Below are positions 8,911 through 27,450 of a DNA stretch of 48,126 bases, piece by piece; within the stretch, counting starts at the first letter, position 1, and every line of letters starts with the position of its first letter. The position numbers and the translations under genes were made by a program. Below the pieces are notes generated by a model. That model did no database searches and was not told the DNA's origin. It saw only the letters and a list, made by a program, of their open reading frames with translations. Source of the stretch: Candidatus Krumholzibacteriota bacterium (GTDB lineage Bacteria > Krumholzibacteriota > Krumholzibacteriia > JAJRXK01); NCBI GenBank assembly GCA_024276305.1, contig JAJRXK010000014.1:1-48126 (forward strand), read 5' to 3'.

Positions 8911-9530
8911 GGGCCAACCTCATTCCCCGGTGCATCGCCTGGCTCCGTTCGAGCCGCGATCGACTTTTCCTGCAGTTCCCGAACATGGGCCACCAGACAC
9001 CAGCGATCCCCTGGAGCGATCTGACCTGCATGAGCAGGCATGTTGCCCTGACCGAAGCTGATGATGTGGAAGATCTGACCCTCGGGCAGCATGGCCGCGT
9101 GGGCTGCAGTGAGGGAAGGCGGAGGAGGAAAGCCCCGCTGCGCCACGAGGCCGTCGCCGGCTCCGGTTGGTCCGTGGCAGGGCTGACAGAATTTCGCAAA
9201 CTCCTTGGCTCCACGTCTCCGAAGCTCGGGATCCTGCAGGTCGACCGGACTCTGGAGTTCCGTTCCGGCCCGCAACGCGTCCTTGGGTCCTGGACCGAAT
9301 CCCAACGGCATCTTTCCCCGAGCCACCGTGCCCTCGGGCGGCGCCTGGAGGGTCTGACCCGAGCCCAGGACCGGATTGACCTGGAAGGCCTGATAGCTGA
9401 TGGAATAGGCCATGTCCGGCATGTACTCGACATTGGTCTTGGAGAGATCTCGACCACCACTGAGGACCAACAGGATGGACCCCGCGATGACGACAATCAG
9501 AAATGCGTTCAACTGCGCAAGCCGGCTCAT
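8907..9530 (-). CDS. actE: Alternative complex III monohaem cytochrome c, ActE
   Basis: A 207-residue periplasmic monohaem cytochrome c, anchored by an N-terminal hydrophobic segment at about residues 9-25. The single haem motif is CQPCHG at about residue 115, with a distal Met likely in QGNMPAHA. N-terminal residues 34-60 (NVEYMPDMAYSISYQAF) match the stretch usual in ActE proteins ahead of the cytochrome fold. It should carry electrons from the ActA/ActB side of the complex to the periplasmic acceptor. ATGA overlaps occur at both ends, with actD upstream and actF downstream. Confidence 0.9.
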   Translation of the reverse strand: MSRLAQLNAFLIVVIAGSILLVLSGGRDLSKTNVEYMPDMAYSISYQAFQVNPVLGSGQTLQAPPEGTVARGKMPLGFGPGPKDALRAGTELQSPVDLQDPELRRRGAKEFAKFCQPCHGPTGAGDGLVAQRGFPPPPSLTAAHAAMLPEGQIFHIISFGQGNMPAHAGQIAPGDRWCLVAHVRELQEKSIAARTEPGDAPGNEVGP

Positions 9531-10069
9531 TGAATGGGCTCCTGTTCTACTCGCTCCACAACCTCGAGCACGTGGAACTCCTCGAACATCTTTTGAGTCG
9601 ACTCCTTGTCAAAGGAAGCATCCGTCTCTTCGAGCACCAATGCGAACTTGTCGTCGGTCACGCCATGCACCGGCAGTTTCGCCTTCCTCCCCGGAATGAG
9701 GCGCTGACCGATGAAGAATGCGGTTACCGTTCCCAGGCCGGCAAAGAGAACCATCACCTCGAAGGTAACTGGAATGAAAGCCGGAAGGGAGTTCCAGGGC
9801 TTGCCACCAACATTCACCGGCCATGACACTGCGGTAGTCCAGAACTCGAACCAGATCTTCAGTCCCGCGCCGAGAATCCCCATTGCCAGAGTGAAGAGCG
9901 GAAGCCTTGTGTACCGCAGGCCCATGGCCTTCTCCAATCCATGAACGGCATAGGGAGCGTACACGTCGACGATGGTCAGTCCTCGTTGCCTCGCTTCATT
10001 GGTGGCACCGAGGATGTCTTCCTCCGTCCCGAATACCCCCAGATAGAACCGGCGATTCTCACGCTGCAT
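9527..10069 (-). CDS. actD: Alternative complex III subunit ActD (DUF3341)
   Basis: A 180-residue membrane subunit of the DUF3341 type. An N-terminal soluble region (YLGVFGTEEDIL, VYAPYAVHGLEKAMGL) is followed by two membrane helices around residues 55-75 and 95-120 and a cytoplasmic tail. The start is ATG 10069, behind GGAGG at good spacing; the frame also extends to 10087, where there is no better site. The gene overlaps actC by 11 bases and actE by four. It is a structural subunit with no cofactor motif visible. Confidence 0.9.
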   Translation of the reverse strand: MQRENRRFYLGVFGTEEDILGATNEARQRGLTIVDVYAPYAVHGLEKAMGLRYTRLPLFTLAMGILGAGLKIWFEFWTTAVSWPVNVGGKPWNSLPAFIPVTFEVMVLFAGLGTVTAFFIGQRLIPGRKAKLPVHGVTDDKFALVLEETDASFDKESTQKMFEEFHVLEVVERVEQEPIQ

Positions 10070-11429
10070 TCTTGCGCCTCCTCCCAATGCTCAGCACACC
10101 CTTCACTTCAGCCATTGCGATGACCGGAACAAAACGAATGAAGATCAGGAACAGGGTGAAGAAGAGACCGAAGCTCCCCAGAAGAGTCGCAAGCTCGACG
10201 AGCGACGGCGAGTACCCTGCCCAGCTGGCGGGCAGGTAATCACGATGGAGAGACGTTACGATGAGAACATATCTCTCGAACCACATCCCGACGTTCACGA
10301 AGAGCGTGAGAATGAAGACAAAGACGAAGTTCTCTCGGACTCGCCGAATCCAGAAGAGCTGCGGCGTGATCACGTTACAGGCAACCATGGTCCAATACGC
10401 CCACGCGAATGGCCCCATCGCACGATTGAGAAAGACGAATTGCTCGAACTCGTTGCCCGAGTACGCTGCCACGAAGAACTCCGTGGCATAGGAGAGACCG
10501 ACGATGGACCCCGTGAGCAGAATGAGTTTGGTCATCGCCCCTACGTGAGTTTTCGTGATGTAGTCCTCGAGGTGCATCGTCTTGCGCGCAATGAGCATGA
10601 GAGTCAGCACCATTGCCATACCCGAGAACACCGCTCCTGCGACGAAGTAGGGAGGGAAGATCGTGGTATGCCATCCTGGAATCACCGAGGTGGCAAAATC
10701 CCAACTCACGATGGTATGCACGGAGATGACCAGTGGAGTAGCCAGACCGGCCAGGAGGAGATACAGAGTCTCGTAACGCATCCACGTCCGGTAGGATCCG
10801 TTCCACCCGAGACTCACGAAGCCCATGATGCGTTTCTTCCAGATCCCCTTGGCCCGATCCCTCACCGCGGCCAGATCCGGAACCATGCCCAGATACCAAA
10901 ACGCGAGAGAGATGGAAAAGTAGGTCGCGATGGCGAAGAAGTCCCAGACCAGGGGAGAGCGGAAGTTGACCCAGAGAGGGCCCCGACCATTCGGATAAGG
11001 GAACATCCAATAGGCGAACCACGGACGACCCATGTGAATCAGAGGGAACAGTCCCGCACACATCACCGCGAAGATCGTCATGGCTTCCGCGGCCCGATTC
11101 ACCGACGTTCGCCACCGTTGCCGGAACAAGAACAAGACCGCTGAGATCAGAGTGCCGGCATGACCGATTCCGATCCAGAACACGAAGTTGGTGATATCGA
11201 AAGCCCAACCCACCGTATTGTTCAGACCCCACACCCCAATCCCGGTGGCGATCTGGTAGGTGACTGCGACCGCGCCCAACCCCAGCAAGGACAACGCCGC
11301 CAGGAACGCCATCCACCAGAGTGCGGTAGGCCGACCCTCGAGAAGTCTCGAAATGTCGTTGGTCACATCACCGGGAGTTTTGTCCCCGAGGATCAACGGA
11401 GTCTGGTCCATGGCCACCTCATCCGTCAT
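10059..11429 (-). CDS. actC: Alternative complex III quinol-site membrane subunit ActC
   Basis: A 456-residue NrfD/PsrC-family integral membrane protein with about ten helices. Landmarks are NNTVGWAFDITNFVFWIGIG near residue 70, FPLIHMGRPWFAYWMFPYP near 130 and TIVSWDFATSVIPGWHTTIF near 230, all typical of ActC. It is the expected quinol-binding subunit, handing electrons to the iron-sulfur clusters of ActB. Its start overlaps the actB end by 11 bases; ATG 11411 is an alternative start. Its 3' end overlaps actD. Confidence 0.92.
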   Translation of the reverse strand: MTDEVAMDQTPLILGDKTPGDVTNDISRLLEGRPTALWWMAFLAALSLLGLGAVAVTYQIATGIGVWGLNNTVGWAFDITNFVFWIGIGHAGTLISAVLFLFRQRWRTSVNRAAEAMTIFAVMCAGLFPLIHMGRPWFAYWMFPYPNGRGPLWVNFRSPLVWDFFAIATYFSISLAFWYLGMVPDLAAVRDRAKGIWKKRIMGFVSLGWNGSYRTWMRYETLYLLLAGLATPLVISVHTIVSWDFATSVIPGWHTTIFPPYFVAGAVFSGMAMVLTLMLIARKTMHLEDYITKTHVGAMTKLILLTGSIVGLSYATEFFVAAYSGNEFEQFVFLNRAMGPFAWAYWTMVACNVITPQLFWIRRVRENFVFVFILTLFVNVGMWFERYVLIVTSLHRDYLPASWAGYSPSLVELATLLGSFGLFFTLFLIFIRFVPVIAMAEVKGVLSIGRRRKNAA

Positions 11430-14382
11430 GATGATCGCGCCCTTCCCCGTCTTCTCGATTCCGCACCAGCTGCAGATACCCTACCGACGGTTTCACGTTG
11501 ATTTCCTCCAGCACGCGGTAGTGCCGCCGACTACTGATCGATGCCGCCACCTCGCTCTGGGCATCGTTCATGTCACCGAACACGATGGCTTGCGCCGGAC
11601 AGCTCTGCTGACATGCAGTGCGAATGTCACCATCTGCGAGAGGTCGGCCGCCACGACGCGCCTCCGCCTTGGCCTCATGGATACGCTGGGCGCAGAAGGA
11701 GCACTTCTCCATCACTCCCCGTGACCGTACGGTCACATCGGGATTCAGAGTCAGGTTCTCGTAGGCATCGTCCCGCGAGTACTCGAACCAATTGAACCTT
11801 CGTACCTTGTAGGGACAGTTGTTCATGCAATATCGCGTTCCCACGCAGCGGTTGTAGATCTGCTCATTCAGACCTTCTTCACTGTGCACCGTGGCCAGAA
11901 CCGGACACACGGTCTCGCAGGGCGCGTTGTCGCACTGGTGACACATCATCGGTTGATGCGCCACCGTGAGATCATCTCCCGATCCCGAGAAGTAGCGATC
12001 GATGCGAATCCAATGCATCTCCCGATTGCGTCGGACTTCGTCCTTGCCCACCACAGGTACGTTGTTCTCGACCTGACACGCGACCACACAACCTCCACAC
12101 CCCGTACACGCGGTCAGGTCGATCGTCATTCCCCAATGATGTCCCGTGTACTCGTGATCTTCGGGCCAGAGATCGCCCTTGTGATGCGGGGCGGAGTGAC
12201 TGCTCTCCGACACGGCCAGTGCAGCGACCGTGGACTCCTGAATGTTCGGGCGACGCGCGCCACTGGCAGGAGCCAGATGAGCCGGCACGTCGATGCTCTG
12301 ATAGTCCTGAGTGAGGGCCAACTCGGACTTGCGGCCGGTGGCATGCAATCTCACCTGAGTTCCCGAGAACCGTCGACCCGAGGACCCGCGAACCACCAGC
12401 GGAGTGGCCGAGACGCCGACCAGTCCGTTGTCGCCAACGGTGGGCTTCTTCTCGATCCACGAGGGACCCATGGACTCGAATCGACGAGAAGCCTCCGCTC
12501 CGTAGCCCATGGCGACGGCGACCACGTTGTCGTGCTGACCCGCTTGGACCAACACCGGCAATTCGACGGATTCTCCCGTCGGCAGCGATATCGACACTAC
12601 GTCACCCTGACTCAGGCCGATCCGCTCGGCGGCCGCCGGAGACAGGCGAGCATAGTTGTCCCAAACCGCCTTGGTGATGGGATCGGGAAGTTCGTGCAAC
12701 CACGGGTTGAAAGCGTGGCCGGCGTTCGGCATCCCCGCTTTGGTATAGAGAACCAACTCGAATCCGTCGCCTCGCGAGAATTTCTCGGCCCGAGCTGCGA
12801 AAACCGGAGCAGTTCGAAATCCACCGACTCGAAAGGACGCGGCGGATTTCTTCACGAAACCGTTGTGCAGTCGCTGTTCCCACTGCCGACCGGTTCCCCA
12901 GCGTTCCTGCAACTGCGCCCGTGCGGATCTCTCCTTCCCACTCCAAGCGGCCAGCGTTTCGACCACCTGTCGAGTATCTCCCAGGGGACGAATGAGAGGT
13001 TGGGTGAATCCCACGACTCCCTGCACCATCTCTGTATCGCTCCAAGACTCCAGATAGTGATGGTCGGGACAGATGTAATGAGCCAACGCCGAGCTTTCGT
13101 CAGGACGCTGTGCGAAAGAGATGATCAGGCGAATCTTGGCCAATTCCGCCGCCCCCGCGCCCTTTCCTGGTAGATCCAGCAGCGGGTTCACGCCGTCGAC
13201 GATCAGCAGGTCGACTTTCCCAGCCGCGATCTCCCCGAGCACTTCCTCCAGCTGCGCCTCACTGCCCTGAACCTGGAAGCTCGGGCGATCCAGATCCAGT
13301 GTGCGGCCGTAGTTCCCCAGGGCATCGTTGATGAAGTTGCAGATCAGCTGGGCGGTGAGGTCGTCGGCCCCACAGAGGACCACGCTCTCCCCGCGATGGA
13401 CCCAGAGCTCGTCGGCCACTTCTTCGATCAGACCCTGGGGCAGCGAGTCCGTCGCGTTTTCGGAACGTCGGTAGGGCCGTCCCGCCTTGCGAGCCACTGC
13501 CGCGGCGAGTTGCGAGAGAACCGCGACTCGGGAGCTCGGCGCTACTCGGTATCGCTGGTCGGCCTTGGCGCCCGTAATCGACAGGGTTGACTCGAACTGA
13601 AGGTGACGCGAGAAGGTCGTACCGTCCCGGTCCGCCCGACGAGCAGCTGTGTAGTCCCGCGTGAACTCCACGGGAGAGATCCAGGTGCCCAGGAAGTCCG
13701 CATCGAATCCGACGATGATTCGGGCACGATCCAGGTGGATATGGGGAACCACCCGCGCCCCGTGGGTCTCTTCGTAGGCGTCGAGAATCGCGGTGCCCCT
13801 CGCAGGATCGTACATCACGTGACGCGCGTCGCGGAATCGGGACAGGAAGTCGTCAATGGCCCGTTGCTTGGTCGGGCTGTTCACCACCGCACTCAAATAG
13901 CGCACCTTGGCGCCGGACCGAGCGAAGCGGTCCAAGTGCTCGCGAATCTCAGCATCGACGCGGGCCCAATCCGACTCTTCGCCATCGCGCACCGGCGCGC
14001 GGTAGCGGTGAGAGTCGTAGAGGCCGAGCAACGACGCTTGCCCCACCGCACAGAGACCACCCTTGGAGATCGGATGCTCTGGATTCCCCTCCAATTTGAT
14101 CGGACGGCCATCACGGCTCTTCGCCAGGATGCCGCACCCTGCGGCACAACCACCGCACGTCGTCGCATAGTAGTCTGCTCTTCCCGGGACCATTCCCTCG
14201 GGTTGCTCGAGCAGAGGAAGGAGTTCCTCCTCTGGCGCGCGTGCGCAACCGTAGACCATCGCTCCCACGAAGGTGAACCCGGCAGCCTGAAGGAACCGCC
14301 GGCGAGAAAGGCTGGTGTAGGCCGAATCCAGCAGTCCATCATCGATGACTTCGGGAGGATTCGTGGGCCTGGGTTCCGACAT
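11419..14382 (-). CDS. actB: Alternative complex III iron-sulfur/molybdopterin-like subunit ActB
   Basis: A 987-residue two-domain protein. Residues 26-45 carry a Tat-like signal (SRRRFLQAAGF) ending near a Cys. Residues ~55-720 resemble a molybdopterin oxidoreductase; in characterised ActB this part carries no molybdenum. The motif TTCGGCAAGCGI with a later GGLCAVGQA keeps the positions of a proximal cluster. Residues ~755-935 are a four-motif ferredoxin domain: CTGCGGCVVAC, CHQCDNAPCETVCP, CVGTRYCMNNCP, and CSFC with TACQQSCP. It relays electrons from ActC to ActA. The gene follows actA by 12 bases behind AGGAG and overlaps actC. The length is slightly short for the family but complete. Confidence 0.92.
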   Translation of the reverse strand: MSEPRPTNPPEVIDDGLLDSAYTSLSRRRFLQAAGFTFVGAMVYGCARAPEEELLPLLEQPEGMVPGRADYYATTCGGCAAGCGILAKSRDGRPIKLEGNPEHPISKGGLCAVGQASLLGLYDSHRYRAPVRDGEESDWARVDAEIREHLDRFARSGAKVRYLSAVVNSPTKQRAIDDFLSRFRDARHVMYDPARGTAILDAYEETHGARVVPHIHLDRARIIVGFDADFLGTWISPVEFTRDYTAARRADRDGTTFSRHLQFESTLSITGAKADQRYRVAPSSRVAVLSQLAAAVARKAGRPYRRSENATDSLPQGLIEEVADELWVHRGESVVLCGADDLTAQLICNFINDALGNYGRTLDLDRPSFQVQGSEAQLEEVLGEIAAGKVDLLIVDGVNPLLDLPGKGAGAAELAKIRLIISFAQRPDESSALAHYICPDHHYLESWSDTEMVQGVVGFTQPLIRPLGDTRQVVETLAAWSGKERSARAQLQERWGTGRQWEQRLHNGFVKKSAASFRVGGFRTAPVFAARAEKFSRGDGFELVLYTKAGMPNAGHAFNPWLHELPDPITKAVWDNYARLSPAAAERIGLSQGDVVSISLPTGESVELPVLVQAGQHDNVVAVAMGYGAEASRRFESMGPSWIEKKPTVGDNGLVGVSATPLVVRGSSGRRFSGTQVRLHATGRKSELALTQDYQSIDVPAHLAPASGARRPNIQESTVAALAVSESSHSAPHHKGDLWPEDHEYTGHHWGMTIDLTACTGCGGCVVACQVENNVPVVGKDEVRRNREMHWIRIDRYFSGSGDDLTVAHQPMMCHQCDNAPCETVCPVLATVHSEEGLNEQIYNRCVGTRYCMNNCPYKVRRFNWFEYSRDDAYENLTLNPDVTVRSRGVMEKCSFCAQRIHEAKAEARRGGRPLADGDIRTACQQSCPAQAIVFGDMNDAQSEVAASISSRRHYRVLEEINVKPSVGYLQLVRNREDGEGRDHHDG

Positions 14383-14394
14383 GGTTCGGATCTC

Positions 14395-15048
14395 CTAGTA
14401 GTGACAGGCGACGCAGTCCAGCGACGCTCGAACGGGTCGACCAGCCAGTCCGGAAGCATTCAGCCGCCGGTGACAATTCACGCACCAACCCATGCTGAGA
14501 CTCTCCACCTGGCGAACTCGCTCCATCGTTTCCACTGCTCCATGACAGCTGGCGCAAGAAACTCCAACCGAGACATGTGAACGATGGTCGAATCGGACAT
14601 AGGCCGGCACTCGGTGGATCTTCACCCACCGAATAGGCTTCTTCTCTCGGTGAGGATCGACATTCAGCGACGCATCGAGCCCAAGCGCGTCGTAGATCTT
14701 CTGAATCTCCGGTGACACCACCGGCTGGGGCTTGCGTCCTGCTTCGGTCGCCGCCGCGTCCTCGGCCCGCACCGCTCCGAGGGGAGCGGAGACGAATCGA
14801 TGACAGTTCATACAGACGCTCGTGGCCGGGACTCCAGCGTGACGGCTCTTCTCCGCGGCCCAGTGGCAGTACTGACAATCCACTTGCAACTCACCCGCGT
14901 GAAGACGATGGGAAAAGGCGATCGGTTGTTCCGGCGCGTAGCCCTGCCGGTTCCACAGAATGTGCGCACCCTCTCCCTGGGCCAGTAGAATTGCCACAGA
15001 GAAGAAGGCGGCCACCGCCAGAACCAGGGTAAGGATGCTGTGTTTCAT
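14395..15048 (-). CDS. actA: Alternative complex III pentahaem cytochrome c, ActA
   Basis: A 217-residue periplasmic multihaem cytochrome with an N-terminal membrane anchor at about residues 5-24. Five CXXCH motifs are visible in order: CQYCH, CMNCH, CASCH, CVNCH and CVACH. Five is the number known for ActA. The spacing of the first pair (YCHWAAEKSRHAGVP..CMNCH) is characteristic. It should receive electrons from ActB and deliver them to ActE or another soluble carrier. It is the first act gene and starts 19 bases after narI, so the nar and act genes form one transcription unit. Confidence 0.93.
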   Translation of the reverse strand: MKHSILTLVLAVAAFFSVAILLAQGEGAHILWNRQGYAPEQPIAFSHRLHAGELQVDCQYCHWAAEKSRHAGVPATSVCMNCHRFVSAPLGAVRAEDAAATEAGRKPQPVVSPEIQKIYDALGLDASLNVDPHREKKPIRWVKIHRVPAYVRFDHRSHVSVGVSCASCHGAVETMERVRQVESLSMGWCVNCHRRLNASGLAGRPVRASLDCVACHY

Positions 15049-15067
15049 GGCCCTTCTCGCCCCAACG

Positions 15068-15775
15068 TCAGCGCGGCAGGCGACGCGAATGAGGTGACCA
15101 GTTCCAGCGCACGACCTGAGTGCGCCGCCAGAGATACTGATTCGGAATCACCAGGATGTGCACCAATCGGGTGAACGGGAAGAATCCGATCACCACGAAG
15201 GCATTCACGATGTGCAATTGCACCGCCCACGGAAGAGCAACCACGTAGTTGATCTCGGGATTCAGTCGTGCAATGGACCAGAGGTAGGGCGAGGCTGCGG
15301 CCGCGAACCACGATGAACCCCAGGGATGGATCACTGCGATGTAGACTCCGGAAACCGCCTGCACCAAGAGCAGTCCGTAGAGAACCCAATCCGACGGGCT
15401 CGTGACCGTCCGCGCCTTCACGAACACCCATCTCCGGACCAAGATCGCCACCAGACCCACCACGGTGAGCAGGCCGAAGACCAACGCCGTCCCTTCCAGA
15501 ATGTAGAGCCTCAGCGGGACGCCATTGAAAGCCAGAACCTGTCGAGGAATCAGCAGCCCGATGACGTGGCCCGTGAGCACGGTGAGAATCCCGTAATGGA
15601 ATGGCACCAGCGCCCAGAAGTGCCGCTGGTTCTCCAGGAATTGCGATGAAAGGCTCGAGTAGGTGAACCTCTGCGCCCGGTAGCGCTGGATCGACACCAA
15701 GAAGAAGAGCGCCAGCGCGATATACGGCAGCACGGCGAAGAGCATCTCGTCCAAGTACGTCTGTCCGGCTTCCAT
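15068..15775 (-). CDS. narI: Respiratory nitrate reductase gamma subunit (cytochrome b) NarI
   Basis: A 235-residue membrane dihaem cytochrome b that oxidises quinol and passes electrons to NarH. Five hydrophobic helices are visible. Histidines suited to haem ligation occur in helix regions around VPFHYGILTVLTGH and VQLHIVNAFVVIGF. The C-terminal FTRLVHILVIP is a family hallmark. I chose ATG 15775, with GGAG five bases upstream; the frame extends upstream to 15847 but that part lies inside narJ. Two bases separate it from the narJ stop. Confidence 0.93.
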   Translation of the reverse strand: MEAGQTYLDEMLFAVLPYIALALFFLVSIQRYRAQRFTYSSLSSQFLENQRHFWALVPFHYGILTVLTGHVIGLLIPRQVLAFNGVPLRLYILEGTALVFGLLTVVGLVAILVRRWVFVKARTVTSPSDWVLYGLLLVQAVSGVYIAVIHPWGSSWFAAAASPYLWSIARLNPEINYVVALPWAVQLHIVNAFVVIGFFPFTRLVHILVIPNQYLWRRTQVVRWNWSPHSRRLPR

Positions 15776-15777
15776 GG

Positions 15778-16368
15778 TCACTCCTTGCTTCCGACGGGGA
15801 GTTGGAACCCCTCGTGGTTCTGCATCTGGGTCTCGTCGATCTTCCATGCCGGCTCGCCATGAACCGAAATCAAGAAGTCCTGGGCGGCCTGGATCAGATG
15901 TCGGAACGGATTCGACTCTTCGGTGACCTTCGTGATCATCACCGCCAGAGCAGGCTCGACCGCCTGGGTGGCGAATCTCTGCTGCTCTTCTGCTTCCATC
16001 CTCCCGAGGACCGGCAACACGTGCACCAAGTGATCCGGGAGTTCATGGGTTTCGGTGACGCCCTGACGCCGGAGCTGCTCGCGCATCCACACCATGAACG
16101 ACCCACGATCGTAGCGTTCGCCGAAGAGGTGCCAACCCACTTCTGCGCAAGCGGCCGGGTTGAGATCGAAGGTTCGGGTGAAGGATTCTTCCAGATCGTG
16201 CAACTCCATGTCGCCGATCTCTTCCGAAAACTGGCGCAGTCTTGTGGCCGCAGTCGGGCACCGCTCGTCCATGAGGCTCGTCACCGTCATCAATGTCTCG
16301 CCATAGTCCCCGGTGGGATAGGCGAAGAGCTTCGCGAAGCGATCGTAGAGCGATACCATAGAGGTCAT
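15778..16368 (-). CDS. narJ: Nitrate reductase assembly chaperone NarJ
   Basis: A 196-residue all-helical cytoplasmic chaperone of the NarJ/TorD group that holds apo-NarG for molybdenum cofactor insertion. Typical features are YDRFAKLFAYPTGDYGETL at the start, LEESFTRTFDLNPAACAEVGWHLFG in the middle and the conserved LPDHLVHVLPVL. ATG 16368 overlaps the narH stop by one base (TGATG), with a GAGGGG site upstream. A longer upstream frame exists but lies inside narH and lacks similarity. It sits between narH and narI, the usual order. Confidence 0.92.
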   Translation of the reverse strand: MTSMVSLYDRFAKLFAYPTGDYGETLMTVTSLMDERCPTAATRLRQFSEEIGDMELHDLEESFTRTFDLNPAACAEVGWHLFGERYDRGSFMVWMREQLRRQGVTETHELPDHLVHVLPVLGRMEAEEQQRFATQAVEPALAVMITKVTEESNPFRHLIQAAQDFLISVHGEPAWKIDETQMQNHEGFQLPVGSKE

Positions 16369-17858
16369 CACAGTCCCCTCCTGGACCCGGACGAGAACCC
16401 GAAGCCCACGCTCTGCCGATGTTCGTGCGGATCCTTCATCATCTCGATGGCTTCCTCTCGCTGAGCCGGAGGAATGACGAATCGATCGTCGAAGGTACAC
16501 AGCGAGGTCAGACGGTAGAGCGCTTCCGCCTCTTCCACCGAACAGTCCGCCGCTTGCAGCATCTTGTGAGCGGTCGCCATATCGATGTCTCCGACCGTCA
16601 TTGCCCGTCGATACCAGCGCACTGCCTTCTGCTTCTTGAGTGCGTAGGCCACTTTCGATTCATGACCCGCACCGAAGAGGTTCGCCAGGAACTTCATCGG
16701 AACTCGCGAACTCTCGATGTCGTGGAAGAATCCATTGTTCAAGTGATCAACCGTATCTCCGTTCTGCTGCGACATCACCGGAGACATCGGTGGCACATAG
16801 AAAAGCATGGGGAGAGTCCGGTATTCGATGTGCGGAGGCAGAGCGACCTTCCACTCCTTCACGAACTTGTAGACGGGTGACTTCTGTGCGGAATCGATGA
16901 CCGCGTCGTGAATGCCGCACTTCTTCGCCGACTCGATGACCTCGGGATCGTTCGGGTCGAGAATCATCGACCGATGCCCCTCGACTAGCTCCGAATCCGG
17001 GAGCTTGGCGATGTGTTCGATCTTTTCCGCGTCGTAGAGCAGGACCCCGAGATAGCGAATGCGCCCGACGCAGGAGTGGAAACACGCCGGAGCCTGCCCG
17101 GTTTCCAGCCGCGGGAAACAGAGAATGCATTTCTCGGATTTTCCGGTGTGCCAGTTGTAGTAGGTCTTCTTGTAAGGACAGGCCGCCACACACGATCTCC
17201 ACGCTCGACAGCGCTTCTGATCGATGAGCACGATCCCGTCCTCTCCGCGCTTGTAGAGTGCCCCCGAAGGACAAGAGGCCACGCACGCAGGATTCAGACA
17301 GTGATTGCAGATTCTCGGGAAGTAGAAGAACACCAAGCGTTCGATCGCCGACAACTGTTGACGCTGGTCTGGACTCAGCCCCTTCAGGTTTGGATCGTTG
17401 GCGGCGTAGATCTTCGATCCACCCAGATCGTCATCCCAATTCGGGCCCGACTCGATGTCGATGTATTCTCCCGTCACTCGAGAGATGGGGCGCGCAGTGG
17501 GCTGATCGGGACCTTCCGGAGCATTGAACAGATTCTGATAGTCGTAGGTCCACGGCTCGTAGTAGTCGTCCATGCTCGGCATGTGCGGATTGTGGAAGAT
17601 ATTCGGGACAATGCGCTTCTTGTCCGTGGACCGGAGGCTGATCTCGTCTCCCTTCTTCTCCCATCCTCCCGCAAACTTGTCCTGATCCTCCCACTGGGCA
17701 GGATACCCGGTACCGGGCTTGGTCTCGACATTGTTCCACCACATGTATTCCGTGCCGGATCGGTCGGTCCAGATGTTCTTGCAGGCGATGCTGCAGGTGT
17801 GGCACCCGATGCACTTGTCGAGGTGAAACACCATTGAGATTTGCGAACGAACTTGCAT
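16368..17858 (-). CDS. narH: Respiratory nitrate reductase beta subunit NarH
   Basis: A 496-residue iron-sulfur subunit that relays electrons from NarI to NarG. Four Cys groups are visible: CIGCHTCSIAC near residue 15; CNHCLNPACVASCP; CRAWRSCVAACP, where Trp replaces the second Cys as in the [3Fe-4S] cluster of known NarH; and CILC with CFHSC. The VFHLDKCIGC start and the PRICNHCLNPACVASCPSGA stretch are diagnostic. ATG 17858 (or GTG 17861) follows GGGAG. The narG stop lies about ten bases upstream, and the 3' end overlaps narJ by one base. The length matches the family. Confidence 0.95.
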   Translation of the reverse strand: MQVRSQISMVFHLDKCIGCHTCSIACKNIWTDRSGTEYMWWNNVETKPGTGYPAQWEDQDKFAGGWEKKGDEISLRSTDKKRIVPNIFHNPHMPSMDDYYEPWTYDYQNLFNAPEGPDQPTARPISRVTGEYIDIESGPNWDDDLGGSKIYAANDPNLKGLSPDQRQQLSAIERLVFFYFPRICNHCLNPACVASCPSGALYKRGEDGIVLIDQKRCRAWRSCVAACPYKKTYYNWHTGKSEKCILCFPRLETGQAPACFHSCVGRIRYLGVLLYDAEKIEHIAKLPDSELVEGHRSMILDPNDPEVIESAKKCGIHDAVIDSAQKSPVYKFVKEWKVALPPHIEYRTLPMLFYVPPMSPVMSQQNGDTVDHLNNGFFHDIESSRVPMKFLANLFGAGHESKVAYALKKQKAVRWYRRAMTVGDIDMATAHKMLQAADCSVEEAEALYRLTSLCTFDDRFVIPPAQREEAIEMMKDPHEHRQSVGFGFSSGSRRGL

Positions 17859-17871
17859 CACAGCTCCCGTC

Positions 17872-20800
17872 TTACCACTTCAACTCGGGGCACTTGCGAA
17901 CCAGGATATGCGTATCCCGATTGACGCCGGTTGGGCCCCAGTAGTTGAAGTGGAAGGTGAATTGACCGTATCCGCCGACCATCAGGGTCGGTTTCAAGCG
18001 AGTGCGAGTGAGGCTGTTGTGGCCTCCGGCCCGGCGATTCCCCCGTAGGGGCGACTTCGGCACCGAGTAGGTTCGCTCCGGCGAGTGGTATTGAATGCAG
18101 ATCCCACGTGGAATCCGGGCACTCACCACAGATCGGGTGACCACGACTCCGTTGTCGTTGTGCACCTCCACCCAATCGTTGTCCTTGATCCCCAACTCCG
18201 TCGCATCCCGGTCGTTCATCCAGAGGGGTTCGACGCCACGAGACAGGGTGGTCATGCGTTCGTTGTCGCCGTAAGTGGAATGAATGTGCCACTTTCCGTG
18301 CGGAGTCAGATAGTTGAGCATCATGGTCTTCCCCACTTCTTTGCTCAAACGCAGATCCGCATACTCCGTGGGCATGGGCTTGGGCTTGTAAGTCGGCAAA
18401 TGCTCTCCGAACTGCAGGTAGCCCGGATGATCCAAGTAGAAGTGCTGACGTCCAGTGAGGGTGCGCCAAGGCACTTTGGCCTCCACGTTGTAGGTGAAGG
18501 GAGAATATGGGCGGCCCTTGCCGATGAGCCCGGACCACATCGGACTGTTCACGAAACGACGGGGCTGGGATTGCAGGTCCTTGTAAGTCACCTCGACTCC
18601 GCGATTCCGTTCGGCCAGGTGCACCAGGGGAACGCCGGTCTTCTTCTCCATATTCTGATAGGACCGGTAGGCCAGTTCTCCGTTGGTCACCGTCGCGAAG
18701 CGAAGAATCACATCACAAACGCTCTCGTCCTCTCGCAAGGAGATGTACTCGTCTCCTCCCCAGCTCTCGCTGGGCAGACGACGCATGGCCTCTGCATAGT
18801 GATCATCGATGGCATAGTGAGTTCCGTGCGCTCCGATGCCGTTGTCTCGAGCCAGTGGACCGAATGAACAGAACTGACGGTGGAGGTTCCGATAGTCGCG
18901 AGTGACGATCTTGATTCCCGGCATCGTCTTTCCTGGAATCGCTTCCACTTCTCCGTCGATCCAGTTGGCGATTTCGGTCTGCGCGATCTCGGCCGAAGTG
19001 TCGTGCGCGAGAGGGACGGCCACGACGTCCCGAACCGGCTCGGGAAAATGCTTCTCGGCCAGTTGCGAGAACTTCTCCCCGATCGCGCGGAAGATCTGCC
19101 AATCGCTCTTGGACTCCCAACACGGCGGCACCGCCTTTGACAGCGGATGAATGAAGCTGTGCATGTCGGTGGAGTTGAGATCCGCCTTCTCGTACCAGGT
19201 CGCTGCGGGGAGGATGATGTCGGAGTAGAGGGCCGAAGTATCCATACGGAAGTTGAGATCCACAACGAGATCCATCTTCCCGGTGGGGGCGATCTTGTGC
19301 CACTTGACTTCCTTGACCGAGTCCTCGGCCATGTCCTCGGCAATCGCATTGGTGTGCGTTCCCAAGTAGTGCTTCATGAAGAACTCGTGACCCTTGGCGC
19401 TCGACATCAGCGCATTTCCACGCCAGATGTACCAGATCCTCGGCCAATTCTCTTCCGCGTCCGGATCCTCTACCGAGAACTTCATCTCCCTCGACTTGAG
19501 CTTCTCGACCACCCACGCGACGATCTCCTCATCAGTGGTGGCGCCGTCAGCTTCGGCCTCCTCCACCAATTCGATCGAGTTGCGGTCGAATTGCGGGTAG
19601 AACGGCAGCCATCCGTTTCTGACCGCCTTCACCTGCACATCGATGGTATGACCCTCGGCGAGAGAGCCTTTCGGTTGACGCTTTGGAACGGTGTGATAGT
19701 CGGTAAACGACCGTTCGTAACGCCATTGATCGCAATTCACGTAATGCCAGCTCGGAGCGTTTTGGAGACGAGAGGCCGGATACCAATCCTTGGCCATGGC
19801 AATCGCGCCCCATGATTCTCCGGGGGCCAGCTTCTCCTGTCCGACGTAGTGGGCCAATCCGCCGCCGTTGACTCCCACACATCCGCAGAACATCAGGGCG
19901 TGGATTCCCGCTCGGTACATCAGGTTGTTGTGGTACCAGTGGTTGATCCCGGCTCCAATGATGATCGTGCACTTGCCATTGGTGTGCCGAGCAGTACTCG
20001 CCCATTCCCGTGCGAAACGAATGAGAGTCTCGCGTCCGAGTCCGGTATACTTTTCGGTCCACGCCGGCGTGTAGACCATGTCGTCGTCGTAGGACTTCGG
20101 GTAGGCGCCCGGCAATCCACGAGGGACTCCATATTGGGCCATCAGTACGTCGTAGATCGTGGCGACCAGTGCGGTCTGCCCATCGGTGGTCTTGATTCTC
20201 CGCACTGGGACACCCCGCTCCAGCGACGTGCCCTCGCCGAAGTCGTCGAACTCCCCCTGGACGACCTCATCCGATTCTCCGAGGAAGGTCAGTGTCGGAG
20301 CGATGGGGCTGCCGTCGAGCCCATCTTCCAGCTTGAGATTCCACTTTCCTTTCTCCGTTCCCCACCGATCTCCCGCAGATCCCATGGGCATCTTCGGTCG
20401 GGCCTCGGCTTCGTCCCACATCAGGAACTTCCAATCGCCGTTCTCCACCTCGGCGTAGGCGCCGATGCGATTGGCGCGGAGATTCTGACCCGGACGGTAG
20501 ACGCCATCGGTCTTCTGAATCTCCACTAGGAGTGGTGCATCCGTGTACTCCTTGGTGTACTCCAGGAAGTACGGGATCTTCTGCTCGTGGTGGAACTCCT
20601 TGAGAATGACGTGATTCACCGCCATCCACCATGCGCCATCCTGACCCGCGTTGATGGCGACCCATTCGTCGGCGTACTTGGCAACCTGATTGAAGTCTGG
20701 GGCGAACACCCACATCTTCGTGCCGTTGTGCCGTGACTCCGCTGCGAAGTGGCAGTCGGGAGTTCGAGTCATATTGAGGTTCGACCCCATGACTGCGAGC

Positions 20801-21513
20801 ATCTTGGCGTTGTACCAGTCCGCAGACTCGTTCACGTCGGTCTGCTCTCCCCAGGCCTCCGGAGAGGCGGGAGGAAGATCGCAGTACCAATCATAGAAGG
20901 ACAGGCCGAGTCCACCCAAGAGCTGCAGGTAACGGGACCCGGAGGCATAACTCACCATGGACATCGCAGGAATCGGAGAGAAGCCTGCGATGCGGTCGGG
21001 ACCGTGCTTCTTCACCGTGTTGACGTTCGATGCGGCCATGATCTCGAGGACCGTGTCCCAATCGGTCCTGCGTAGCCCGCCCTTGCCGCGAGCTCTCTGC
21101 CAGCGACTGCGTTTCACGTCGTCTTCGACCAGAGACTTCCAGGCCTCGACTGGATCGTCATAGGCTCCTCTCGCCTCTCTCCATAGATCGAGGAGCGCTC
21201 CGCGAATGTACGGATACTTGACTCTCAGCGGGCTGTAGAGATACCACGAGTAGGAGATCCCTCGCTGGCATCCGCGCGGTTCGTAGGGAGGAATTCCCTC
21301 TTCGAGCTGCGGATAGTCCAGCTGCTGCATCTCCCAGGTCACGATCCCGTCCTTCACGTGAATGCCCCAGCTACACCCACCGGTGCAGTTCACGCCGTGC
21401 GTGCTGCGAACGAGTTTGTCGTGCTGCCAACGGTTGCGATAGAACTCCTCCCAGCCTCTCGACTCGGGAGCGACCTCGTCCGCAATCCATGGAATCTTGA
21501 TCTTGCTGCTCAT
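17872..21513 (-). CDS. narG: Respiratory nitrate reductase catalytic subunit NarG
   Basis: A 1213-residue molybdenum bis-MGD enzyme reducing nitrate to nitrite. The FS0 cluster ligands H39, C43, C47 and C82 reproduce the H-x3-C-x3-C-x34-C spacing of E. coli Nar[18 protein letters not shown] contains the Asp expected to ligate Mo, and NESADWYN follows. The N-terminus ([14 protein letters not shown]) lacks a twin-arginine signal, so the active site should face the cytoplasm, unlike archaeal outward-facing enzymes. AGGA lies eight bases from the ATG. It is the third gene of the operon, 12 bases after a dihaem cytochrome. The presence of narJ and narI and the NorR context favour nitrate reductase over nitrite oxidoreductase, but sequence alone does not prove direction. 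Confidence 0.95.
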
Positions 21514-22983: not shown

Positions 22984-23040
22984 GTTATCGTAACGATGAC
23001 CAAAGGGTGTTATCCGGGAGGCACATACTGTTATCTGAAC
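22984..23040. promoter_or_regulatory. Three NorR-type enhancer sites
   Basis: The NorR consensus is GT-N7-AC. GTTATCGTAAC (22984-22994) and GTTATCTGAAC (23030-23040) fit exactly. GTTATCCGGGA (23009-23019) shares the GTTATC half and is degenerate on the other side. All three begin GTTATC, with start spacings of 25 and 21 bases. The first overlaps an 11-base dyad, ATCGT-A-ACGAT (22987-22997). Three tandem sites are the known arrangement for E. coli NorR. They sit between norR and the operon, so could serve activation of one and autorepression of the other. Confidence 0.75.
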
Positions 23041-24620
23041 GACAACCGACCCGAGACCTCCTGGCGGCGATCTCGGCCTGCTCTCGGTCATTGGCGGTCG
23101 CCATGAGCCCGGTGCAGCGCTTTCAGCAGATCCTCGACACCGCGAGCGGGGTCATCCCCCTCGATGCCGCCTGTGTCCTGCATCTCGACGGTGACGACCT
23201 CGTCCCCGTGGCTGCGATCGGCCTCGACTCGTCGATTCTCGACTGCCGTTTCGCGCGGGCAGAACACCCCCGTCTCGACATCATTCTGCGCAGCACCTCA
23301 CCGGTTCGATTTCGCCCCGATGCTCCCATCGCGGACCCTTTCGAGGAGTTCATCACTCAGCCTCCTGGGATTCCCTCCACCATTCACGCCTGCGTCGGCG
23401 CCCCCCTCATCGATTCGGGAGAGGTGATCGGAGCCCTGACCTTCGATGCGCTCGATGCGGGAGCATTCGCAACTGTGGACGACCGGCTCTTCTCCATCCT
23501 GGGATCGGTGTGTTCTGCTGCGATGAAGATCGACTCGCTGTCCGAATCTCTCGACGAAGTACGGCGGGAACGGCGGTCGGTGGTGACGGAGCTGCGAAAG
23601 CTCAATGAGGATGCAGTGGGCGGAGTCATGATCGGCCAGAGTCGGGCCATGCAAATCGTCACCGAGGACATTCGCGTGGTCTCACCCAGCTGTCTTCCGG
23701 TCCTGATCACCGGAGAAACCGGAGTGGGAAAGGAACTCGTGGCCCGACGAGTCCATGCCTATTCGAATCGCTCCGAGGGTCCGATGGTTCAGGTCAACTG
23801 CGCGGCATTGCCCCGATCGGTGGCCGAATCCGAGTTGTTCGGTCATGTGAAGGGGGCCTTCACCGGGGCCAGCGCGGATCGCCTCGGAAAGTTCGAGGTG
23901 GCCGATGGCGGCACTCTCTTCCTCGACGAGATCGGCGAGCTGGCCTTCGACTTACAGGCCCAGCTTCTTCGGGTGCTGCAGTGCGGCGAAATCCAACGGG
24001 TGGGCACGGATCGAGTTCTACGAGTGGATGTGCGGGTGGTCTCGGCCACCAACCGAGACCTTCAAGCCGAAGTGCGCGCAGGACGGTTCCGCGCCGATCT
24101 CTTCCACCGGCTGGCCGCATTTCCCATCGAGGTCCCCCCCTTGCGCGAGCGCAAGGACGACATTCCTCTCCTCGTATCGCACTTCCTCAAGCGGGCTCGT
24201 CGCCGTCTCGGACTCGGCCCGTTGCGGGTGTCCGAGACCGCCCTCCGTCAGCTCCAGGCGGAATCCTGGATGGGGAACATCCGGGAACTCGAGAATGTCA
24301 TCGACCGGGGAGTTCTCCGCGCCTCCCGAAGCGCCCCCGCGGGAGCGATCCTTGTCGTTCGACCCGAACACATGGATCTCGACCGCAGTCGAGGAAGCGC
24401 GGCCAAGACCTATGCCTTCACTGGAGCACCCGACCTTCCCGACGGTCTCGGCTTTCGAGAACGATGTGATGCCTGCAAGCAAGAGCGGATCAACGTGGCA
24501 CTCGAAAAGAATCGCGGAAACTGGGCGGCGGCAGCCCGAGACCTCGGAATGCATCGCAGCAATCTCCACCGACTCGCGGTGCGCCTGGGATTCAAGGAAA
24601 GAACGGATGCCGGAAGTTGA
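23007..24620 (+). CDS. norR: NO-responsive sigma-54-dependent activator NorR
   Basis: A 537-residue enhancer-binding protein. Residues ~20-175 are a GAF domain aligning with E. coli NorR: R95, R101, D110, C129 and D147 match the iron-ligand set there, while E113 stands where E. coli has a second Asp. Residues ~208-440 are the AAA+ domain, with Walker A GETGVGKE (236-243), GAFTGA (283-288) for sigma-54 contact and Walker B LFLDE. A Fis-type helix-turn-helix ends the protein ([22 protein letters not shown]). It is divergent from the nar-act operon. The start GTG 23007 overlaps two NorR sites. ATG 23103 would avoid this but would trim the first GAF helix, so GTG is preferred with modest certainty. 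Confidence 0.88.
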
Positions 24621-24677: not shown

Positions 24678-25670
24678 TCAGGGCTTGCGAGTGAGCAACT
24701 CGGTCTGTGGATTCACAATGACCCAGTTGTACCAATAGGTGTCGAAGCCACCCAGGTCCCCTGCGGGATCGAGATCCCCTGAGTCGATCTTGGTCAGCAG
24801 TTCCTTGGCCGACCGCGTCTTGCCGACCTGCTCCTGCGTCAGCCGATAGGCGCGGCTCGATGCGAATACCGACGCCGACGGTTCTCGGAAGAACAGACCC
24901 CAGCTCTCGTCATCCAGCCGCACCAGTGCCCCACCTTCGATGTCCTGACTGGCAATCGCTTGGGGTCGATCGTGATACCAGAAGGAATAGATCGGGGCCT
25001 TGGGAGAAAGACGATCGTCGTCGACTTCAACCCCTCGGAAGGTGCGATCACTCCCGAAATAGTTGGTGTAGACGTTGGTCTCATCGTGTTCCACGCCTCC
25101 CACCGAGAGAACGAGGGTATCGGGATGTTTCTTCTTCCACTCCCCCCAGGGAAGCTTCTCGCTCACCGGAAGTTCCTTGAGTTCGGCACCTTCGAGAGCA
25201 CCTCCGATCCCGCGACTGCTCATGATCGACCACCAACTGTCCGTCTCTCGATCCCGCAGCACCAAGGAGGCCTTTTCCAAGGCTCCGGACGGTTCGAAAT
25301 TCAATTCTCGATCCTCGTAGCTTCGGTCGTACACGACGGCCGTATTCGCCAGAGGTCACCACACTGCGGCGATCGGATGCTCTCCCACTCGGTCGTTCAC
25401 GACCTCGTGGTGATTCAGTAGATTCAGGCTGTAGGCTCTGGCCTCTCCCCCCATCACCACTCCGAGCACCCATGCGTCGTCGGGGATCTCAGCCTCGTCC
25501 GCGGTCACGAACTGAGGATCGAATACCGCAGGGATCTTGCCTCGCTCCAGAATCTGCTCCACCCCCGGGGGCACGGACTCCGGCTCGACGTTCTCCGACG
25601 CGGCCACCACCACCGCCAGAAGGCCGAGACCAGCGCCCAACACCGCGCTCGTCACCCATCTTCGATTCAT
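24678..25670 (-). CDS. DUF3179 protein with in-frame TGA, probable selenoprotein
   Basis: A 330-residue secreted protein if the TGA at 25358-25356 (codon 105) is read as selenocysteine. The signal peptide covers residues 1-24, with ATG behind AGGAG. The frame continues unchanged across the TGA: HPIAAVW, then U, then PLANTAVVYDRS, exactly at the W-C-P-L-C redox motif of DUF3179 proteins. Here Sec would take the first Cys position and Ala the second. Coding quality is equally good on both sides and the C-terminal 225 residues are intact (SWWSIMSSRGIGG, GSDRTFRGVEVDDDRLSPK). As I recall, some family members are named (seleno)proteins. Its reaction is unknown. No selA, selB or selC lies in the window. 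Confidence 0.78.
25326..25358 (-). promoter_or_regulatory. TGA codon with short SECIS-like hairpin
   Basis: The TGA (25358-25356) is followed after 22 bases by a small stem-loop, GTCG-TGTA-CGAC (25337-25326), with GT in the loop. The distance falls within the range given for bacterial SECIS elements. The stem is only four perfect pairs with imperfect extension through CGG/CCG, so the structure alone is weak support. The case rests mainly on where the TGA lies in the protein. Confidence 0.45.
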
Positions 25671-25774
25671 ATCGACTCCTGAACTAGGGGGACGTGGGGG
25701 GGTGAACAGATCCTAACCGAAGCGGGCAGAACACTCTATGCCATTCGCAGGGCTCGGCCTGGACCACCGGGAGA

Positions 25775-26434
25775 TCAGAGCTCTCCGCGACGATCTTTCT
25801 CCGCTCCCCGTATACCCGGATGGATCTCGAAGCGATCCCGAGTTCGCGCGTATGCGAATCCGCCCATCCTTCCGATCGCATCCAGCTCGGAGGGATCGAC
25901 ATGAAGACGCTCTCCGAGCACGGTGTCCGCCAGGTGCACGTGAACCACTTCTGCCACCACCACATTGCCTCCGCCCGGCTCACCGGGGTTCAGTCTCAGG
26001 ATCCGAGAAGTCCGACACTCGTAGTGCACCTTCGAGTCGGCAACTCGCAGAGGCGCAACGACCGAGCTGGGGACCATCGCCACCCCGAAGCGCTCGGCTT
26101 CGCTTTCTTCGGGACCCAGAGCCTCGGCCGTCGCCGCCATGACTTCGGCCTGAGGATTCGAGACGATGTTGACCACGAACTCTCCCTGCCCTCCCTCCTC
26201 GACAGGCTTGGCGTTGCGAAGGGTGTCCTTTTCTTCGCCGTCCGCGGCATTCGCCGGACAGAAGAGCAGGCTCATTGGATCCGACCCCACCCCGGTGAAG
26301 AAGGAAAAGGGAGCCAGATTCGTGGTACCCTCCGAAGAAATCGTCGAAACCCATGCGATGGGCCGAGGTACGATGCCGCCGATGAGAAGTTTGTAGCGTT
26401 CGGCGACTCCCAATTGGGCAGGATCGAATTCCAT
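25775..26434 (-). CDS. Flavin reductase-like FMN-binding protein
   Basis: A 219-residue protein of the flavin reductase/flavoredoxin split-barrel family. It opens YKLLIGGIVPRPIAWVSTIS, then TTNLAPFSFFTGVGSDP and the FVVNIV segment, all family hallmarks for FMN binding. It probably moves electrons between NAD(P)H or a partner and FMN; the partner is unknown. ATG 26434 lies four bases after the YtxJ-like gene, so both are likely cotranscribed. The last ~25 residues (after YARTRDRFEI) are a basic tail. About 100 bases with no gene follow before the DUF3179 gene. Confidence 0.78.
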   Translation of the reverse strand: MEFDPAQLGVAERYKLLIGGIVPRPIAWVSTISSEGTTNLAPFSFFTGVGSDPMSLLFCPANAADGEEKDTLRNAKPVEEGGQGEFVVNIVSNPQAEVMAATAEALGPEESEAERFGVAMVPSSVVAPLRVADSKVHYECRTSRILRLNPGEPGGGNVVVAEVVHVHLADTVLGERLHVDPSELDAIGRMGGFAYARTRDRFEIHPGIRGAEKDRRGEL

Positions 26435-26438
26435 GCGC

Positions 26439-26789
26439 TCAGGATCCCGCGGGGTCGAGCACTCTGGTCAATGAGTCCTCGGTGATCGAGCCGTGGCTGC
26501 GGTGCCACACCGCTTTGCCGTCTCGCAGCAGAATGACCTGGGGAGATTCGTGCTCCACCTGGGTCTTCTCCGCCACGAGAGCAGACAACTCTCGTGTGCG
26601 CTGGATTTCGACCGCTGTATAGATGGCCGCGGCTGGATGGTCTGCGATGAAGTCCCCATATTCTTTCCAGGCCGCAGCGGAGATCGGGCAGGTCAGGCTG
26701 TGCTTGAACACGAAGACAGGCTTCTGGTGGGAATCCTCGATCGCAGACTCCAACGCCTCGGCGCCATCGAGGATGATCGGTAGGCTCAC
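26439..26789 (-). CDS. ytxJ: YtxJ-type monothiol bacilliredoxin-like protein
   Basis: A 116-residue thioredoxin-fold protein. Its single redox Cys lies in FKHSLTCPISAAAWKEY, the H-S-x-x-C-P-I-S motif of the YtxJ/BrxC (DUF2847) family. The later HESPQVILLRDGKAVWHRSH is equally diagnostic. YtxJ proteins are linked to bacillithiol and reduce mixed disulfides on proteins, which would imply a bacillithiol-type thiol in this organism (inferred). GTG 26789 is chosen because AGGAG sits five bases ahead; a TTG at 26816 is the upstream alternative. It lies between the thioredoxin and flavin reductase genes, same strand. Confidence 0.8.
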   Translation of the reverse strand: MSLPIILDGAEALESAIEDSHQKPVFVFKHSLTCPISAAAWKEYGDFIADHPAAAIYTAVEIQRTRELSALVAEKTQVEHESPQVILLRDGKAVWHRSHGSITEDSLTRVLDPAGS

Positions 26790-26812
26790 GTGAACTCCTG
26801 GGATTCGGGGGG

Positions 26813-27301
26813 TCAATGGAGTACCCGGCGCGCGCGCCTTTCGTCGGTGACTCCGCGGTGCAGGGTCTCGAGAAAACGCTCCGGGTCGAAGACTACTGGT
26901 AGTCGTCTCACGACCTGCCCCTCTCCGTCAAGTACGAGGAGAGCAGGGAATCCGCGGACTCCGTAGCGCTTGCGAAATCGCTTTCCCTCTTCGCTCTCGT
27001 ACTCGACTCGAGCAAAGACATAACTCTCGGAGATCGCATCCCGCACTCGCGGATCGGAGAGGACGTGCTGGTGCAATCGTCGACAGGTGGAACACCAGAT
27101 CGCCGACAAGTCGGCCAACACCAATCGATTCTCGTCACGAGCAGCCAGAATCGCATCGGGTAGCGAATGCTCCTCCAGTCCCATCGACGCCACCGCACGC
27201 CGCCCCATCCAGGACTGCACCTCCACATTCCCGAAGTAGATGGCGACGCCCACGACGACCCAGATCGCCACGCGTCTCGAGATCGAAAACTTTGATCGCA
27301 T
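26813..27301 (-). CDS. Membrane-anchored thioredoxin-fold protein
   Basis: A 162-residue protein with an N-terminal signal anchor (residues ~8-27: RRVAIWVVVGVAIYFG) and a thioredoxin fold facing the periplasm. The active site is AIWCSTCRRLHQHVL, a CXXC motif of the DsbD-gamma/thioredoxin_7 kind, with a cis-proline region GVRGFPALLVLDGEG. It likely reduces or relays disulfides, perhaps for cytochrome c maturation or for the nearby DUF3179 protein; both targets are inferred. ATG 27301 follows GGAGGAG. The frame extends to 27349 without a better site. It is the first gene of a minus-strand redox group and is divergent from the BrkB gene. Confidence 0.78.
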   Translation of the reverse strand: MRSKFSISRRVAIWVVVGVAIYFGNVEVQSWMGRRAVASMGLEEHSLPDAILAARDENRLVLADLSAIWCSTCRRLHQHVLSDPRVRDAISESYVFARVEYESEEGKRFRKRYGVRGFPALLVLDGEGQVVRRLPVVFDPERFLETLHRGVTDERRARRVLH

Positions 27302-27450
27302 GATGGAGTCGCTCCTCCCGACCCGAGCCTGCCCCCTGCAGACCGACATTCTGGACTACGCGAACCACGAATCCAGCGTGACCACCGGGCCGTGGACAGC
27401 AGTCCCCATCCGTGTTTGACTTCCGGCGACCCCACAGGAGGATCCCCGCC

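Follow-up and report, generated by a model that had tools for sequence, protein, structure and literature searches.

Proteins with the domain of unknown function DUF3179 appear on the selenoprotein lists of two reviews (PMC9312934 and PMC13188914), where they are entered with the motif UxxC/T and credited to Zhang & Gladyshev 2007, so that a selenocysteine (Sec) reading is not new at the level of the family. Here, we analyzed a DUF3179 gene on a contig of 48,126 nt (JAJRXK010000014.1; hereafter, the window) from a Candidatus Krumholzibacteriota bacterium. The gene shares with the published DUF3179 selenoproteins the same Pfam domain and a Sec at the same family motif but differs from them in displaying UxxA (W-U-P-L-A-N), in a domain that is usually free of Cys and in its placement in a separate clade. 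The published UxxC/UxxT motif is replaced by UPLA here and throughout this clade (referred to as AVWUPLAN); the listed motif is descriptive and does not define the family. A full-text search returned no paper combining UxxA with selenoproteins, and UxxA is absent from the published motif entry; within the literature covered, including the two reviews, the UxxA, mostly cysteine-free branch of DUF3179 is not described. Two further groups are closely comparable. Cys-containing DUF3179 proteins (e.g., L073, L077 and L104) belong to the same family and carry Cys at the Sec position, with most of them keeping CPLC, but they have no SECIS potential, and the four genomes with Cys or Ser forms tested across phyla have no selA. 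The genome under study carries both types, having a Cys paralogue of its own (L043). Sec-type SelD and other bacterial SECIS-dependent genes use the same decoding system, but their proteins are unrelated to DUF3179.

Translation of the gene with TGA read as Sec (U) yielded 330 residues with a single internal TGA, at codon 105, followed by a TGA stop (Table 1). Under the standard code, the same stretch splits into two open reading frames, 25356-25670 (104 aa) and 24678-25334 (218 aa), the outcome that the original prediction had expected of an ordinary gene caller. The read-through protein is a member of DUF3179 (PF11376; E-value of 1.2e-54, residues 44-323), scoring 186.2 bits against a cut-off of 27 and spanning positions 2-292 of the 292-position profile. 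No model of the curated NCBIfam library matched. Among all in-frame TGAs of the window, that of codon 105 ranked first for two-sided coding quality (0.42/0.34 bits per codon), which bears out the earlier observation that coding quality continues past the TGA. The same ranking revealed no convincing second selenoprotein within the window: the next-ranked TGA (22631, plus strand) lies opposite a clear hemerythrin gene on the minus strand, and the third (21528, minus strand) is simply the stop codon that ends the cytochrome c gene preceding narG.

Table 1. Coordinates of the DUF3179 selenoprotein gene, its elements and the genes upstream of it in the window
Feature	Position	Strand	Details
DUF3179 selenoprotein gene	24678..25670	(-)	330 residues; TGA stop at 24678-24680
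UGA codon 105, read as Sec; motif W-U-P-L-A-N	25356..25358	(-)	TGA shared in this column by 72 distinct homologues
bSECIS upper hairpin	25324..25342	(-)	arms 25342-25336 and 25330-25324; apical loop CGUGU, 25335-25331
AGGAG ribosome-binding-like site	25676..25680	(-)	5 nt before the ATG; from sequence
Flavin-reductase-like protein	25775..26434	(-)	next gene upstream, 104-nt gap; PF01613, E 1.2e-18
BrxC (monothiol bacilliredoxin) family protein	26439..26816	(-)	PF11009, E 3.2e-32
Thioredoxin-like protein (WCSTC)	26813..27349	(-)	PF13899/PF13098, about 3e-13

A lone genome with one TGA and good coding on both sides of it would look the same if the TGA were a nonsense change or a sequencing error and the downstream piece were dead. 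The codon was compared among homologues, which were collected by one pattern-based scan of 85k species, using search patterns that did not include the TGA codon, and by searches in two phyla. We found 72 distinct Sec homologues, from several phyla, that share the TGA at precisely this codon; the closer ones show full-length protein identities of 43-58%. At the equivalent of codon 105, TGA is present in all close relatives retrieved (34/34 of those in the PLAN/AVW context). A genome of the same family (G003) also carries this locus (L054). More distant relatives carry either TGA or Cys in this column, in agreement with the proposal that the single TGA occupies the position of the family's first Cys. 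This shared TGA, together with a downstream hairpin that is under selection (see below), already refutes the explanation by pseudogenization or sequencing error, which retains a practically negligible probability. Forms with Ser, His or Asn in place of Sec/Cys (e.g., TWSPLSGS and TWHPLCGS) were confined to separate branches without a SECIS (L034, L035, L036, L093, L080-L082, L039, L092 and L038), and these proteins are possibly non-redox versions of the domain.

The original prediction also pointed to a short hairpin with GT in its loop, 22 bases downstream of the TGA. The element was located as described, with the loop CGUGU beginning 20 nt, and its G lying 22 nt, downstream of the UGA. The bSECIS model given in a 2026 review (PMC13188914) specifies a loop of 3-9 nt with a G as its first or second base and an upper stem of 4-16 bp at 16-37 nt from the UGA, with a minimum free energy of at most -7.5. 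In the window, we found a loop of 5 nt with G in second place, a distance of 20 nt, a fold-compatible stem of 6 pairs with one C.A mismatch, and a fold of -14.9 kcal/mol for a 47-nt segment (-5.2 for the 26-nt core alone). Taken by itself, the hairpin of the window is no more stable than its shuffles (z of 0.03 for the short fold and -1.2 for the longer one), and its significance comes only from comparison of homologues. For this comparison, synonymous codons were shuffled gene by gene, with the element left out of the usage table, and pairing was scored between offsets 16-22 and 28-34 around the 5-nt loop. The 72 Sec sequences formed 469 of 504 pairs versus 357.1±6.7 expected under synonymous shuffling (z of 16.8, with shared ancestry not removed); in 23 representatives with less than 60% identity, which addresses shared ancestry in part, the z-score was 9.4. 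In the 27 non-Sec forms, pairing fell below expectation (68 of 189 pairs versus 79.1), i.e., no hairpin was detected. The pair between offsets 20 and 30 was never broken among the 72 Sec sequences (C-G in 58, U-A in 12, A-U in 1 and G-U in 1) and displayed compensatory C-G/U-A changes. The loop G24-U25 was present in 71 of the 72; however, these two bases are dictated by a conserved Val codon, and it is the pairs, not the loop, that carry the test.

A search of the same assembly for the Sec machinery, suggested as a check by the original prediction, recovered all four genes: selA (E-value of 2.8e-134), selB (350 bits over the cut-off), selD (E-value of 7.9e-98, with an in-frame TGA of its own, GUAAK) and selC, whose tRNA-Sec has the anticodon UCA and scores 72.1 bits over the gathering score. 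The selD gene (L010, G000:C42:67487-68416) is itself a selenoprotein gene, with its TGA in the context AAAAG-U-AAKIAPGD. We detected selA in 19 of the 21 genomes carrying a Sec form of DUF3179 versus none of four with Cys/Ser forms (Fisher p = 0.0012), a test that has force only across phyla because selA is nearly universal within the window's own class (57 of 58 genomes). No selA was detected in the two remaining Sec-form metagenome-assembled genomes (L069 and L060, in genomes G097 and G090, respectively), in which the DUF3179 hairpin is intact; these bins are likely incomplete or mixed. Reading through TGA here would also be expected if the code were reassigned (TGA as Trp or Gly) or if read-through were general, but narG (1213 aa) and other long genes contain no in-frame TGA, and TGA terminates the DUF3179 gene itself as well as others, e.g., the cytochrome c gene before narG. 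The presence of Sec machinery and a SECIS, and the frequent occurrence of Cys at the homologous residue in other branches, likewise speak against such a code, which we consider very improbable. Sec, by comparison, is very probably inserted at codon 105: the shared TGA, the conserved hairpin, the complete machinery and the co-occurrence with selA agree with the initial view of the gene as a likely selenoprotein. Given the complete machinery and the strong conservation, UGA105 would be decoded by SelB and tRNA-Sec(UCA), presumably directed by the hairpin just downstream with GU in its apical loop.

We then placed the UxxA proteins among other members of the family. In a tree of 72 domains, the 26 UxxA sequences formed one clade with 100/100 support, which adjoins a UxxC Sec clade (support of 91/80 for the pair) and contains members from the window's class, Acidobacteriota, Myxococcota and Planctomycetota as well as one gammaproteobacterial metagenome-assembled genome. 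UxxA was also found outside this clade, with L047 located elsewhere in the tree and a later search uncovering TWUPLA forms outside the AVWUPLAN group, which indicates that Ala at +3 probably has more than one origin. Among Sec forms, the residue at +3 was A (n = 38), C (n = 25), T (n = 4), V (n = 3), Q (n = 1) or S (n = 1). Replacement of the second Cys by Ala had been read as a frequent accompaniment of Sec at a catalytic position; the Ala is indeed there (UPLA), but the residue at +3 varies, and Ala marks particular branches. Cys was absent from the domain in 29 of 32 AVWUPLAN sequences, while the other three carried one or two Cys at sites that are not common to the branch. No orthologue with AVW-Cys-PLAN was found by the pattern-based scan of 85k species and the searches in two phyla.

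The AlphaFold model of the whole read-through protein (pLDDT of 92.2) places Sec105 at the turn between repeat-1 strands 98-105 and 110-115, preceded by the conserved segment HEVVND (His88, Glu89, Asn92 and Asp93). DUF3179 proved to be a tandem duplication, with residues 36-196 matching residues 215-329 (95.9% probability, E-value of 5.9e-9), and the Cys/Sec hairpin is carried by repeat 1 and is missing from repeat 2. The N-terminus of the product looks like an export signal, and the product may therefore be an exported two-repeat protein, as judged from its N-terminal residues. Searches of the PDB returned no match by sequence and no usable match by fold for the whole protein (leading hits with E-values of at least 0.013 and TM below 0.2). 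In BFVD, the model fold matched uncharacterized giant-virus proteins (A0A1V0SD44 of Indivirus ILV1, E-value of 8.5e-10, and A0A1V0SF28 of Hokovirus HKV1, E-value of 2.5e-4).

When repeat 1 was modeled alone (pLDDT of 93.8), the top Foldseek match and all matches with a probability above 0.1, among the best 50 listed, were Rieske-fold proteins (NirD 3c0d, 0.82; 3dqy, 0.57; 4aiv, 0.54). These matches are weak, with E-values of 0.075 or worse and TM of 0.43-0.50 at best. The spacing N86-x-H88-x16-U105-x2-A108 equals the CxH-x16-CxxH of the Rieske proteins of relatives, and the ligand positions of the Rieske [2Fe-2S] domain (PF00355; CxH...CxxH) are thus occupied by N86, H88, U105 and A108. Both observations, along with the lack of a resolving Cys, are consistent with a Sec site that is not redox-active but binds a metal or ligand, or that belongs to a cluster-less Rieske-like domain with Sec at an old cluster-ligand position. 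NirD is itself cluster-less. Homology to Rieske proteins was, however, not supported by profile comparison (hhalign), in which the probability was 0.7% and shuffles scored as well; two of the four ligand positions are kept, and no more. The non-redox alternative is somewhat unlikely. With regard to Rieske-fold NirD (3c0d, 4aiv and 2jo6), the Sec-bearing repeat shows a weak structural likeness and the same ligand spacing, but there is no sequence signal with DUF3179 and the ligands are not kept, and we do not claim membership. A still more doubtful extension would make AVWUPLAN a Sec-obligate, Cys-free exported subfamily with a degenerate Rieske-like fold, in which Sec takes the place of a former Fe-S ligand and acts as a single selenol next to a conserved His.

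The gene order around the locus is not conserved: loci of the same genus and family match the window in the DUF3179 gene alone, and the neighbors that recur in acidobacterial loci have no counterpart in it. The flavin reductase, BrxC and thioredoxin genes upstream (Table 1) and the nitrate-reductase island thus constitute context, not evidence. The respiratory island (9527-21513, minus strand) encodes the nitrate reductase NarG/H/I and, downstream, a set of NrfD, molybdopterin/Fe-S and multihaem cytochrome proteins, which we take to resemble alternative complex III; genes for cytochrome c and hemerythrin lie just upstream of narG. Convergent with the selenoprotein gene is a regulator with GAF, sigma-54 activator and Fis-type HTH parts (23007-24620, plus strand), an architecture similar to that of NorR.

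Returning to the site itself, Sec105 would usually be the sole Se/S nucleophile in the mature domain of the branch, in which case no internal selenenylsulfide could form. Among the possible mechanisms, the most likely choice, which we favor tentatively, is a redox or peroxidase-type cycle that runs on one selenol and is reset by an external reductant, with binding of a metal or substrate by the selenolate as the next choice. Two considerations lead to this reading of the product as an exported redox protein with one selenol, namely the lack of a second Cys and the chemistry that Sec generally displays, and the redox role itself is suggested by the family motif and by the presence of Sec.

The two fragments that ordinary annotation would report here are one selenoprotein gene. 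The Rieske-like repeat provides a first, albeit weak, structural lead for DUF3179, a domain of unknown function. If Sec is the sole reactive Se/S atom, the branch would offer a clean system for a lone, apparently irreplaceable selenol outside the cytoplasm.
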